Positions 56,278-64,000 of a stretch of 64,000 nucleotides of DNA are shown here, one piece after another. Numbering within the stretch: the stretch's first letter is position 1; every line of letters starts with the position of its first letter. The notes below the pieces were generated by a model. The model was not told the origin of the DNA. It ran no database searches and saw nothing but the letters and a program-made list of their open reading frames with translations. Source of the stretch: Massilia antarctica (GTDB lineage Bacteria; Pseudomonadota; Gammaproteobacteria; Burkholderiales; Burkholderiaceae_D); NCBI RefSeq assembly GCF_015689335.1, contig NZ_CP065053.1, positions 3,410,001 to 3,474,000 of the forward strand. The letters run 5' to 3'. Both the position numbers and the translations under genes were made by a program.

Positions 56278-56772
56278 TCATGCCGCCTGCCAGCGCAGGG
56301 CGTCGGCGTGGAGGCCGGCCTGTTCGATCCGGAAGCCCAGTTGCAGGTACAGGCGGCGGGCGCGCGGGTTAGCGTGGTGGACAGACAAGGTCAGCGGCAG
56401 ATCACGGTCAGCTGCAAAGCGCTGCAGTGCGCGCAGCACTGCGCGGCCGGTGCCGCGCCCACGTGCCTGCGGCAGCAGGACGATATCGACCAGGCGCAGC
56501 GCCTCACGGCCATGCTCGAGCACGATGCGCGCCACCGGCTCGCCAGCCTCGTGCAAGACCAGATAGACGGCATCCGGAAAGCGCGCGCGGTAATCGGCCG
56601 CCTGCAAGCGCTGCTGCATCGCGATCAGCGACGCCGCCAGGGCCGGGTCGGCGCTCCCTGTGCCGAGCAAATCCTGGCGCGTGGATGCGTACAGGCGCGC
56701 CAGGAACGGCGCGTCGGCTTCCACTGGCGTACGCGCAGCGAAGGCCCGCAGATGGGCGGCGAGCGCGCTCAC
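56278..56772 (-). CDS. GNAT-family acetyltransferase
   Basis: N-acetyltransferase of 164 aa with the GNAT acetyl-CoA motif LPQARGRGTGRAVLRALQRFA (Q/RxxGxG/A) and the following strand DLPLTLSVHHANPRARRLYLQLGF. The substrate cannot be inferred. The start is GTG at 56772, overlapping the stop of the MFS gene by 4 bp (GTGA), so the two are coupled. Confidence 0.88.
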   Translation of the reverse strand: MSALAAHLRAFAARTPVEADAPFLARLYASTRQDLLGTGSADPALAASLIAMQQRLQAADYRARFPDAVYLVLHEAGEPVARIVLEHGREALRLVDIVLLPQARGRGTGRAVLRALQRFAADRDLPLTLSVHHANPRARRLYLQLGFRIEQAGLHADALRWQAA

Positions 56773-58037
56773 GCGGCGGCCTTGCCGTCCTGCGCCGTCG
56801 CTTCCTTCTCGTGATGGGGAAAACGGTCCATGCGCGACAGGACCGGGAACTTGAAGATCCAGATTGCCGTGACCGCCAGGGTGGCGGCGCCGCCGAACAG
56901 GATCGCGCGCGTCAGCCCGAACCAGCCGGCGGTCAGGCCCGACTCGAATTCGCCGAGTTCGTTGGATGCGCCGATGAACACCGCATTGACCGCGCTCACG
57001 CGGCCGCGGATTTCATCGGGCGTCTCGAACTGCACCAGCAGATGGCGCACGTACACGCTCACCATGTCGCCGGCGCCGAGCAGGAACAGGGCGCCCAGGG
57101 CGACCGCGAAACTCGCGGTCCAGCCCAGCACCAGGGTCGCCACGCCGTACACGGCCACGCCGCCGAACATCCACGCGCCGACCCGGCGGCGGATCGGATA
57201 AAACGCCAGCGCCACCGAGCACAGCGCGGCGCCCACACCAGGCGCGGTGCGCAGGAAACCGAGTCCCACCGCATCGACCTGCAGCACATCGTGGGCGTAG
57301 GCCGGCAGCAGCGCCGTGGCGCCGCCGAACAGCACCGCGAACAGATCGAGCGAGATGGCCCCCAGCATGATTGGGCGCGACCACACGAAGCGCAAGCCTT
57401 CCAGCACCGTATGCCAGGTGGCCGGTTCCTTGTTGACCACCTGGGGGGCGCTATGCGTCATCGACATCAGGATCACCGACAACACCAGCAAGGTCGCGGC
57501 CGCCAGATACACGGTCGCCGGGCCCTCGATATACAGCAAGCCGCCGAGCACCGGGCCGGCGATCACGGCCACGTGAAACGCCGACGAACTGAGGGCCACC
57601 GCCTGGCTGAAATGCTCATCCGGCACCATATTGCGCAGCACCGCCTGGGTGGCCGGCATCATGAACGCACGCGCGCTGCCGAACAGCACCAGAATGGCGA
57701 ATACCGGCCATACCACCGACACCCCGCTGGCCGTAAAGGCCAGCAGCATCAAGCCGCACAGCAACTGCGTGACCAGGCACAGGATAATGATCCAGCGCCG
57801 GTCGTAGCGGTCGGCCGTATGTCCGGCTAGCAAAATCAACACCAGGAAAGGCGCGAACTGGGCCAGGCCGATCAGGCCCAGGTCGAACAGGCTGCCCGTC
57901 ATCCGATACACTTGCCAGCCGATGGCCACGCTCTGCATCTGCACCGCCAGGGTTCCCAGCACGCGTGCGGCGAGATAAAACGAGAAATTTCGGTGGCGCA
58001 AAACGCTGAAACCGTTGGACGGCGACATCATCGACAT
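56769..58037 (-). CDS. MFS exporter, EntS-like (TF_3) type
   Basis: Membrane transporter of 422 aa with about twelve helices. Hallmarks of the MFS_3/enterobactin-exporter-like group are NFSFYLAARVLGTLAVQMQSVAIGWQVY (in pieces), the loop AGHTADRYDRRW between TM2 and TM3, and GRVSAVNAVFIGASNELGEFESG late in the protein. It probably exports a small molecule; which one is unknown. The C terminus is charged (HHEKEATAQDGKAAA). Coupled to the GNAT gene and divergent from the acyltransferase gene. Confidence 0.92.
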   Translation of the reverse strand: MSMMSPSNGFSVLRHRNFSFYLAARVLGTLAVQMQSVAIGWQVYRMTGSLFDLGLIGLAQFAPFLVLILLAGHTADRYDRRWIIILCLVTQLLCGLMLLAFTASGVSVVWPVFAILVLFGSARAFMMPATQAVLRNMVPDEHFSQAVALSSSAFHVAVIAGPVLGGLLYIEGPATVYLAAATLLVLSVILMSMTHSAPQVVNKEPATWHTVLEGLRFVWSRPIMLGAISLDLFAVLFGGATALLPAYAHDVLQVDAVGLGFLRTAPGVGAALCSVALAFYPIRRRVGAWMFGGVAVYGVATLVLGWTASFAVALGALFLLGAGDMVSVYVRHLLVQFETPDEIRGRVSAVNAVFIGASNELGEFESGLTAGWFGLTRAILFGGAATLAVTAIWIFKFPVLSRMDRFPHHEKEATAQDGKAAA

Positions 58038-58824: not shown

Positions 58825-59048
58825 AACCGGGGTCTGACCTCTGATTAGCAATTTGTTGCAAATTCAATGGAACAGGTGCAGGTTTTGATATTTTTGGTGA
58901 TGAAACAGCGTCGTGCTGGCGCGTTTTATTACCTGGATAGTGGGCAGTTAAGAAACTAGTTGCAAATCAGAGGTCAGACCCCGGTTAAACGGATAGTGGT
59001 CAGTTAAGCAACTAATTGCTAATCAGAGGTCAGACCCCGGTTAAACGG
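58825..59048. repeat. MITE-like element with 23-bp inverted repeats
   Basis: CCGGGGTCTGACCTCTGATT (continuing AGC; 58827-58849) is repeated perfectly in inverted orientation near 59018-59040. The right side is a tandem direct repeat of about 56 bp (from 58935 and from 58991), each unit running from GGATAGTGG to CCCCGGTTAAACGG. The region is AT-richer in the middle and encodes nothing. The layout suggests a small non-autonomous mobile element. The rest of 58774-59096 shows no gene. Confidence 0.78.
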
Positions 59049-61913: not shown

Positions 61914-61996
61914 GCCAGTACCGCTTACTTAATCGTCTGTAAAGACAGCGCGCCGGCGAATATGCCACGGGCGTGAATTTGGAAAGATTCAATCAC

Positions 61997-62263
61997 ATGA
62001 CCAATCGCAGATTTCCGGAAGATGCGACCTACGATCCGAACAGGGTACTCGATGCCATCATTGAACGCTTGCAGCTCAAGAACGACGCGGCCCTGTCGCG
62101 CGCGCTTGAAGTGGCGCCGCCCGTGATCAGCAAAATCCGCCACCGCACCTTGCCGATTGGCGCGACGATTTTGCTGCGTATGCATGAAATCAGCGATTTC
62201 AGCATCCGCGAATTGCGCGCGATGATGGGCGTGCCGGCAGTAAGCATCCACATCAACGCCTGA
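61997..62263 (+). CDS. small HTH-like protein
   Basis: Protein of 88 aa. The segment KNDAALSRALEVAPPVISKIRHR (about 30-52, in part) has the spacing of a Cro/CI-type HTH, where SRALEVAPPVISKIR would be the DNA-reading region. A GGAAAG site fits the ATG at 61997; the frame opens at a GTG at 61973. No target or neighbour explains it. It could be a small transcription regulator. Confidence 0.65.
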   Translation: MTNRRFPEDATYDPNRVLDAIIERLQLKNDAALSRALEVAPPVISKIRHRTLPIGATILLRMHEISDFSIRELRAMMGVPAVSIHINA

Positions 62264-62463: not shown

Positions 62464-63405
62464 TCAGGCTGGCTGCAGATCACCATGCGAGATGGATTGG
62501 ATCAGTGCCGCGGTCGCCGCGCTCACCAGCATGGGCTCGGCGGTCGCGGGCGGCTCGGCTCTGGCGGACGATGCCGCGCTGGCGCCCAATGGTGTCGTCT
62601 TGACGCACCAGGCCGACCGTAATGCAGCCGGTGCCGCCTTGGCGCACCATGCGGACGCAGGCGCAGGTATAGCCGGAGCCGCCTTGGCGCACCAGGCCGA
62701 CGCGGGCGCAGCCGGAGCGGCCTTGGCGCACCAGGCGGATGCAGGCGCAGCCGGAGCGGCCTTGGCGCACCAGGCCGATGCAGGCGCAGCCGGCGCCGCC
62801 TTGGCGCACCAGGCGGATGCAAGCGCAGCCGGCGCCGCCTTGGCGCACCAGGCGGATGCAAGCGCAGCCGGCGCCGCCTTGGCGCACCAGGCGGATGCAA
62901 GCGCAGCCGGCGCCGCCTTGGCGCACCAGGCGGATGCAAGCGCAGCCGGAGCGGCCTTCGCGCACCAGGCCGACGCAAGCGCAGCCGGAGCGGCCTTCGC
63001 GCACCAGGCCGAGGCGCGTTGGCCATACGATTCGTCGAACACCTGTTCATACAGATCGCGCATGCGGTCGGCGCACGCTTGCAGCACTTGGGCATCGTCG
63101 TGCGCGCCGCTCATGCCCACATACGGGTAGTGGTGGAGGAAGTAGCCAAACGCTTGCTCGCAGTCTTTCGCATACTTCATCGTGTCCAGGATATGGTAGT
63201 GCCAGAAAATGTCGACCTCGACGAGTGGCGAAATATCTTCCTCGGGGAACGCTTTCATCAGGCACAGGAAGCGGCGGTATTCGACTTCAACCGCCTCGGC
63301 TTTTTCCAGGGACCAGCCCTCGCCGGATTCCACGTGCATGAGCTTCATTTTGATCGGTTCCAGATCGAGTTCGGAGATTGCTTTGATTGCGTCGTTGGTC
63401 ATCAT
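62464..63405 (-). CDS. GRDP-like domain protein with Trp-Cys tandem repeats
   Basis: Protein of 313 aa. Residues 1-125 resemble the glycine-rich-domain-containing (GRDP/DUF1399-type) fold: PLVEVDIFWHYHILDTMKYA, DCEQAFGYFLHHYPYVGMSG. From 132 to 275 there are eleven tandem units of about 13 residues, consensus SAWCAKAAPAALA, each with one Trp-Cys pair and one Lys. The last unit is degenerate (SAWCVKTTPLGA). A 38-residue Ala-rich tail follows. An AGAGGC ribosome site precedes the ATG. No signal peptide is seen. Similar N-terminal domains with low-complexity tails exist in bacteria; the repeat type and the function are unknown to me. Confidence 0.82.
   Translation of the reverse strand: MMTNDAIKAISELDLEPIKMKLMHVESGEGWSLEKAEAVEVEYRRFLCLMKAFPEEDISPLVEVDIFWHYHILDTMKYAKDCEQAFGYFLHHYPYVGMSGAHDDAQVLQACADRMRDLYEQVFDESYGQRASAWCAKAAPAALASAWCAKAAPAALASAWCAKAAPAALASAWCAKAAPAALASAWCAKAAPAALASAWCAKAAPAAPASAWCAKAAPAAPASAWCAKAAPAAPASAWCAKAAPAIPAPASAWCAKAAPAALRSAWCVKTTPLGASAASSARAEPPATAEPMLVSAATAALIQSISHGDLQPA
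62581..63012 (-). repeat. 39-bp tandem repeat array inside the GRDP-like gene
   Basis: About eleven direct repeats of 39 bp (one of 45 bp, and a degenerate last one of 36 bp). The period is a multiple of three, so the coding frame is kept. Units at 62800-62940 are almost identical, which suggests recent expansion by slippage or recombination. Because of the period, other frames are open too, which creates long shadow ORFs on both strands. Confidence 0.92.
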
Positions 63406-63693: not shown

Positions 63694-64000
63694 TCAGACA
63701 AGTGCCGCATGCGACTCGTTTTTGCCGTGCGGGTTGTCGGACGGGCCGCCACGCGAAGCTTCGTTATGCAGGGGCACGCTGACGCACACGGTGGTGCCGT
63801 TGCCGGCGGGGCTGGAAATGGAAAACGAGCCGCCCAGGATGCTGATCCGTTCTTCGATGCCGACCAGGCCGAAGGAACCGACTTTGCCCTGTTCGCCGGC
63901 CTGCAGGCCGATGCCGTTATCGCTGACCGTCATCGACAGGCGATTGCCGTTGAGCTTGAGCTCGACCCTGACCCTGGTGGCCTGCGCATGGCGCACGATG
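63694..64000 (-). CDS. histidine kinase, C-terminal part (NarX/DegS type)
   Basis: The C-terminal HATPase_c domain of a kinase that continues past the window end. Visible are the N-box remnant RHAQATRVRVEL, the G1 box VSDNGIGL, and FGLVGIEERISILGG, which is typical of NarL-partner (HisKA_3) kinases. The protein ends NPHGKNESHAALV. The partner response regulator is not in the window. Confidence 0.88.
   Translation of the reverse strand, partial: IVRHAQATRVRVELKLNGNRLSMTVSDNGIGLQAGEQGKVGSFGLVGIEERISILGGSFSISSPAGNGTTVCVSVPLHNEASRGGPSDNPHGKNESHAALV

Follow-up and report, generated by a model that had tools for sequence, protein, structure and literature searches.

A GRDP-like protein of Massilia antarctica with a conserved, selected tandem repeat, and its link to CHASE-type sensors

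What could be the function of a protein made of a conserved N-terminal domain and a long array of near-identical short units, each built around an aromatic residue followed by a cysteine? This question is raised by a gene located in a stretch of 64,000 nucleotides from Massilia antarctica (assembly GCF_015689335.1, contig NZ_CP065053.1, positions 3,410,001 to 3,474,000), hereafter the window. The gene (62464..63405, minus strand) encodes a protein of 313 amino acids (aa), with a GRDP-like head and a tandem aromatic-Cys repeat tail, and had been singled out in an earlier note on this DNA. Sequence comparisons provide one part of the answer: behind its conserved head, the protein carries a four-residue core that is conserved, under selection, and repeated in tandem, and it is linked to CHASE sensors with two types of output. 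As to the role of the protein, we tentatively favor, at somewhat less than even chances, a multi-copy peptide precursor or a ligand protein that would be dedicated to serving a CHASE-type membrane sensor.

The repeat, its conserved core, and the head

The gene is an open reading frame (ORF) with an ATG start, and its product is composed of three parts, all encoded on the minus strand. The GRDP-like domain, recognized through Pfam, alignments, and an AlphaFold2 model, comprises residues 1-130 (63016..63405). It is followed by eleven tandem units of the consensus SAWCAKAAPAALA (residues 132-276; 62578..63012), supported by Tandem Repeats Finder and by motif conservation, and then by a non-repeat C-terminal extension (62467..62577), with similar ends present in the nearest species. 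The eleven AWC units, of which the first starts at residue 133 and the last at residue 265, are spaced by 13 aa throughout, save for 15 aa between units 9 and 10, and all contain Trp-Cys and one Lys (11 of 11). Tandem Repeats Finder, run independently, reports positions 62624-63009, with a period of 39, 9.7 copies, and a 91% match. The own genome contains a single match to the N-terminal domain. No second tandem Trp-Cys array is obvious in this genome from a search with the spacing pattern of Trp-Cys alone, which returned 85 matches, 10 of them in the repeat gene and the remainder judged scattered by eye.

Relatives of this protein are frequent among the genomes of the same family. At E<=0.001, the N-terminal domain is matched in 121 of 294 genomes, and 111 of these matches are strong (E<=1e-21), the other ten genomes (G001, G009, G023, G063, G085, G104, G187, G240, G258, G287) being dropped as weak. 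The scan of genome contigs resulted in 52 loci with flanks of up to 8 kb, mainly from Massilia, Duganella, and Pseudoduganella. Elsewhere head relatives are sporadic (2 of 74 genomes in the family of G634 and 2 of 32 in the family of G488), and they are present in 1 of 4 genomes in the genus of G430; one relative is located on a viral contig (L172). In a few places, an intact head gene is accompanied by an additional copy that is broken or truncated (L009:19-505, L074:9139-9459, and G106:C1:5101564-5101932). From all loci, 103 ORFs were matched; exclusion of four lacking the HHxPYxG anchor and of two with tails shorter than 40 aa left 97 tails, reduced to 62 non-redundant ones by removing N-terminal domains at least 95% alike.

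In 62 of the 62 non-redundant tails the core is constant, Ala-[Trp/Tyr/Phe]-[Cys/Ser]-small. Aromatic-[Cys/Ser] pairs occur 569 times in these tails versus 88 in shuffles, with Ala directly before 553 of the 569, and 449 of the 453 Cys residues stand after an aromatic. The number of units ranges from 2 to 19 (median of 9). The unit varies between species (AWCTR, AYCAGP, AFCGIV, AYSGRV, AWSGAA, and others) and is nearly uniform inside each protein, with mixed aromatics in 7 and Cys mixed with Ser in 4 of the 62 tails; the DNA units are homogenized within each genome. When redundancy is kept, 69 of the 97 tails are Cys-type and 28 are Ser-type. As a separate observation, the motif [FL]Y..RP.L is found at the tail end in 27 of the 28 Ser-type tails and in 0 of the 69 Cys-type tails.

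Is such an array maintained for a function, or has it simply expanded recently? We compared the units codon by codon within each of 61 proteins. The ratio of nonsynonymous to synonymous change (pN/pS) is 0.06, 0.03, 0.02, and 0.06 at Ala, the aromatic, Cys/Ser, and the next small residue (positions -1 to +2), about 0.2 at the two positions following the core, and 0.40-0.64 at positions -3, -2, +5, +6, and +7 of the outer spacer, while pS is 0.38-0.67 at all positions of the unit. As synonymous change is plentiful, the core codons are held by purifying selection and are not merely young, and by this test the repeat array is not a case of neutral drift. Variable copy number, variable spacers, and homogenized DNA units would all agree with a low-complexity expansion devoid of function, but this alternative is extremely unlikely given the pN/pS of 0.02-0.06 over four consecutive codons and given the linkage to CHASE sensors described below. 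The earlier note had specified beforehand what would argue for neutral drift, tails lacking Trp-Cys and varying freely, or an unmodified protein with no conserved neighborhood, and neither the free variation nor the lack of a conserved neighborhood was observed: while the Trp-Cys pair itself does vary (Tyr or Phe, and Ser), the core is under strong purifying selection. The idea of a metal-binding or redox thiol array, also put forward there and agreeable with the eleven regularly spaced Cys of the window protein, is unlikely and is not supported as a general function, with 28 of the 97 tails being Ser-type and with Ser in place of Cys in 120 of the 569 motifs of the 62 tails; in addition, across the family there is one Cys per unit at variable spacing, and neither His nor acidic residues are constant in the units. 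The eleven ordered Trp-Cys units and the near-identity of the DNA units were confirmed, and Trp-Cys with Lys is indeed present in every unit of the window protein but is not constant in the family, for which the constant feature is Ala-aromatic-Cys/Ser; the family spacers often hold K or R, with Lys not being a conserved position.

The GRDP-like nature of the head, another claim of the note, was borne out as a borderline case. The match to the Pfam GRDP-like family (PF07173) has a score of 21.8 bits (E 3.3e-4), with the gathering cut-off of 22.7 not being reached, and covers profile positions 100-143 of 143, the conserved C-terminal part; the orthologue L064 passes with 23.7 bits, and the score for L057 is 20.8 bits. 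The head is thus homologous to GRDP-like domains as judged from these matches, though not formally a member of the family. GRDP-like is the only match of the window protein in Pfam at E<=1, with no match to the BURP domain, and there is no match to TIGR04222, with 0 NCBIfam families at E<=1. The head is all-helical, with a conserved WHYHILDT...DC...HHYPYVG, in which W68, H69, H71, T75, H92, P94, and G97 are invariant across 11 diverse relatives, and D74, D81, C82, and H91 are nearly invariant. Its AlphaFold2 model has a pLDDT of 90 and a pTM of 0.85, and for the head no PDB match was obtained at E<=0.001.

The upstream CHASE sensor and the proposed role

The gene adjoining the repeat gene upstream, on the same strand, encodes a sensor histidine kinase of the CHASE-HisKA_3-HATPase_c type by Pfam. 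Its C-terminal end is within the window (63694..64000, minus strand), while the gene (own copy L083:1695-3737) runs about 1.7 kb beyond the window edge, and the full gene has the CHASE domain. A kinase of the same family is found upstream in 52 of the 52 testable loci (L080 begins inside the repeat gene), and the CHASE region is matched in 50 of these 52 kinases, the other two, those of L054 and the window, being truncated where the locus ends. The same upstream kinase is present in 30 of 30 shorter loci, whose species partly overlap the 52-locus set. A single small ORF of 75-117 aa is inserted between the two genes in five loci, and in nine cases the next gene upstream is another repeat-gene copy or fragment. 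By comparison, none of the 14 loci of head relatives without a confirmed array has a kinase match, with the limits that L162 includes only about 0.3 kb upstream and that L164 ends at a contig edge in the letters AWS. The neighborhood that the earlier note had proposed to examine is therefore conserved, but what it contains is a CHASE sensor in place of a modifying enzyme, and the sensor gene lies mostly past the window edge.

Multiple observations extend this linkage. One example is presented by loci L035, L037, L038, L040, L042, and L043, in which the kinase-repeat pair is present two or three times, the copies having different tail types. Another example is L165, in which the two genes are adjacent but divergently oriented. 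A third example is presented by three large plasmids from other families, in which a CHASE-GGDEF-EAL gene is found upstream instead of the kinase: those of Cupriavidus sp. P-10 (L177) and Cupriavidus pinatubonensis (L181), both Burkholderiaceae and both with AYCAR arrays, and that of Variovorax sp. PDNC026 (L178), of the Comamonadaceae, with an AWCSL array, while Massilia belongs to the Oxalobacteraceae.

As in multi-core precursors of ribosomally synthesized and post-translationally modified peptides (RiPPs), a repeated conserved core under selection is found here behind a conserved N-terminal region, and a multi-core peptide substrate, one of the suggestions of the earlier note, is still the leading idea, jointly with that of a ligand protein. 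The GRDP-like head would then serve as a leader or a carrier, and the units would be functional cores, either modified at the aromatic-Cys/Ser pair, or released by cleavage as multiple copies of a single short peptide, or both. The CHASE protein would respond to this product or to the array itself, or would control it, with the modifying enzyme, the protease, and the export route possibly encoded elsewhere.

A number of observations weigh against such a role. No signal peptide is apparent in the window protein, by inspection only, and thus the tail would need to be exported in order to meet an extracellular CHASE domain. Among the ten neighbors in the own genome, four of which have no family, Pfam recognizes no RiPP modifying enzyme or protease. 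No Cys tail is present on the head relatives in L174, L176, L179, and L180, and so serving as a leader for Cys units cannot be the sole role of the head. The pair is also part of a conserved old block in the Massilia group, in which glutaminyl-tRNA synthetase (GlnRS) is detected by tblastn in 46 of the 52 loci, an epimerase in 47, a reductase in 45, a small downstream protein in 41, and an MFS transporter in 37, these counts being limited by locus length; the occurrence of the kinase in 52 of 52 loci must therefore largely reflect shared ancestry and not 52 independent events. The argument for linkage is instead carried by the duplications of the pair, by its inverted arrangement in L165, and by the three plasmids of other families, as these are independent of the block. 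Finally, over 56 pairs, tail type is not significantly related to the CHASE sequence when both kinase and N-terminal domain distances are accounted for (r 0.075, p 0.084). The correlation is positive when only kinase distance is accounted for (r 0.194, p 0.001), yet that of the kinase domain with the tail, given CHASE, is as positive (r 0.214, p 0.001). Co-diversification of CHASE and tail is thus not specific and does not demonstrate that receptor and ligand are matched, and we do not count it as support. Tail similarity also tracks the N-terminal domain (r 0.225, p 0.003), which fits a head recognizing its own tail and, equally, simple co-inheritance.

Some of the same evidence would agree with an intracellular multivalent scaffold, a disordered polymer of aromatic stickers, often with cationic spacers, that would remain in the cytoplasm and cluster or recruit a partner protein, perhaps at the cytoplasmic side of the sensor, never being cut or modified. 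The lack of an apparent signal peptide fits this possibility, as do the pLDDT of about 28-36 over most of the modeled array (from a shallow alignment of only 5 sequences), the common K or R in the spacers, the occurrence of both Ser-type and Cys-type tails, and the range of 2 to 19 copies. However, stickers are expected to tolerate different neighboring residues, and here the constraint on Ala at -1 and on Cys/Ser at +1 is as strong as that on the aromatic; moreover, CHASE, which is taken to be extracellular, is the named domain common to the upstream genes of both output types. We consider a scaffold possible but not probable, and favor the precursor or ligand protein over it.

Distant head relatives, the gene block, and candidate enzymes

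Further leads on the head, though not tests of the window protein, come from its distant relatives. In three genomes, a TauD-family oxygenase, a SAM methyltransferase, and a large ABC protein are encoded beside short GRDP proteins with a terminal Cys motif (L159:5-5966, L162:1-6184, and L173:5971-12363, the latter from Azospirillum ramasamyi), the ABC protein being UvrA-like by Pfam in L173 and by reading only in L159 and L162; this set resembles a mobile biosynthetic cluster. Four plasmids, two from Pseudomonas savastanoi and the others from Halomonas and Maritalea, encode GRDP proteins that lack a Cys tail (L174:5848-7733, L175:5860-7595, L176:5917-7712, L180:5947-7722). A gene for a protein of about 440 aa directly follows or overlaps each of them; in the three loci in which it was translated (L174, L176, and L180), this protein looks polytopic, with Pfam support weak or absent. 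About 3 kb further on in L180, there is a SagB/ThcOx gene. Also observed was a different GRDP protein in a genome of the same family (G193; L166:4606-5088), with the tail NCWHDCVGRCWHAC, in which Cys stands beside Trp and there is no long tandem array. Longer head relatives are fusions of GRDP and TIGR04222, some with Cys- and Gly-rich tails. Both the gene set beside the Cys-motif proteins and the TIGR04222 fusions point to the use of the head as a precursor or carrier domain. One could go further and propose that the GRDP domain itself modifies or carries the aromatic-Cys/Ser cores in cis, with its invariant Asp/His (D65, H69, H71, H92) and nearly invariant Cys forming a metal site, and that the multi-copy peptides would be the signal for a co-inherited CHASE receptor, in histidine kinase and cyclic-di-GMP versions; we find this fairly improbable.

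If instead the tailoring is carried out by a dedicated enzyme, where could it be encoded? Pfam assigns the ten neighbors in the own genome to GlnRS, an epimerase-like protein, a ferredoxin-type reductase, an acyltransferase, an MFS_3 transporter, and a weak DUF6178, plus the four without a family. The earlier note had stated that no maturation enzyme, protease, or exporter is next to the gene, which holds for the first two by Pfam among these neighbors but not entirely for the third, as the MFS_3/MFS_1 transporter (56769-58037) is located 4.4 kb downstream of the repeat gene; it could represent an export route, though its tie to the repeat gene appears no closer than that of other genes of the block. 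Also downstream, on the opposite strand, a small protein of 96 aa is encoded (61973-62263), helix-turn-helix-like by eye and without a Pfam family; this is the small protein detected in 41 of the 52 loci. Elsewhere in the window, a 56-base element is present in two tandem copies (58935-59048, 93% match), part of which recurs at C1:456802 of the own genome.

One candidate is an MNIO enzyme, with the window protein being a RiPP-like substrate resembling the TIGR04222 proteins or bufferins. The TIGR04222 family has been proposed in part as MNIO substrates by Antoine et al. (PMC12452194), and an MNIO gene (G000:C1:3555647-3556432, in a frame of 559 aa) is located about 82 kb from the repeat gene in the own genome. 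The distance is about 8 kb in G025 and ranges over about 56-82 kb among nine further relatives, probably due to old synteny. However, 18 of the 111 strong genomes have no match to PF05114, and 28 of the 97 tails are Ser-type, making such a substrate very unlikely. As an obligate enzyme, MNIO is ruled out by these 18 genomes, which were identified by comparing the two sets of matches by hand. Another candidate is a different tailoring enzyme encoded elsewhere, for example of the YcaO type, whose azoline chemistry would act on Cys or Ser, in which case the CHASE sensor would only regulate expression. The alternation of Cys and Ser and the small residue that follows would agree with this possibility, as would the presence of PF02624 in 30 of 30 repeat-bearing genomes, even if the latter weighs little, since only repeat-bearing genomes were sampled; in the own genome, about 28 kb separate the repeat gene from the nearest YcaO gene, and overall we regard this alternative as rather unlikely.

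Significance and comparison with known systems

In the open-licence literature searched, no description of a bacterial GRDP repeat protein was apparent, and no dedicated repeat-protein partner of bacterial CHASE sensors turned up; within this literature, the pair would represent a new kind of sensor-linked repeat module. Plant cytokinin receptors apart, few CHASE sensors have a known ligand, and a repeat protein positioned beside CHASE sensors in three bacterial families, with two output types, would provide a direct way to find out what is sensed by some of them. It would also offer a testable role for the uncharacterized GRDP domain. Should the units prove to be modified or released, common soil bacteria would possess a new type of multi-copy peptide system.

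The upstream partner matches the domains of CHASE sensor kinases and CHASE-GGDEF-EAL proteins (PF03924). The plant proteins AtGRDP1/2 (GRDP-like/DUF1399, PF07173) have a homologous N-terminal domain, followed by a low-complexity C-terminal region, whereas the tail of the window protein is an Ala-aromatic-Cys/Ser array. The TIGR04222 membrane proteins include members with GRDP, TIGR04222, and Cys- and Gly-rich tails, while the window protein possesses neither a TIGR04222 match nor a Gly/Cys tail, and MNIO is not matched in the 18 genomes mentioned. Aromatic residues occur in the cores of burpitides, peptides whose precursors make the closing comparison. A fused, autocatalytic burpitide pathway is described in PMC11253845. 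The window protein is bacterial and has no BURP match, but it shares with multi-core RiPP precursors, the fused burpitide precursors included, the combination of a conserved head and tandem short cores in one protein.
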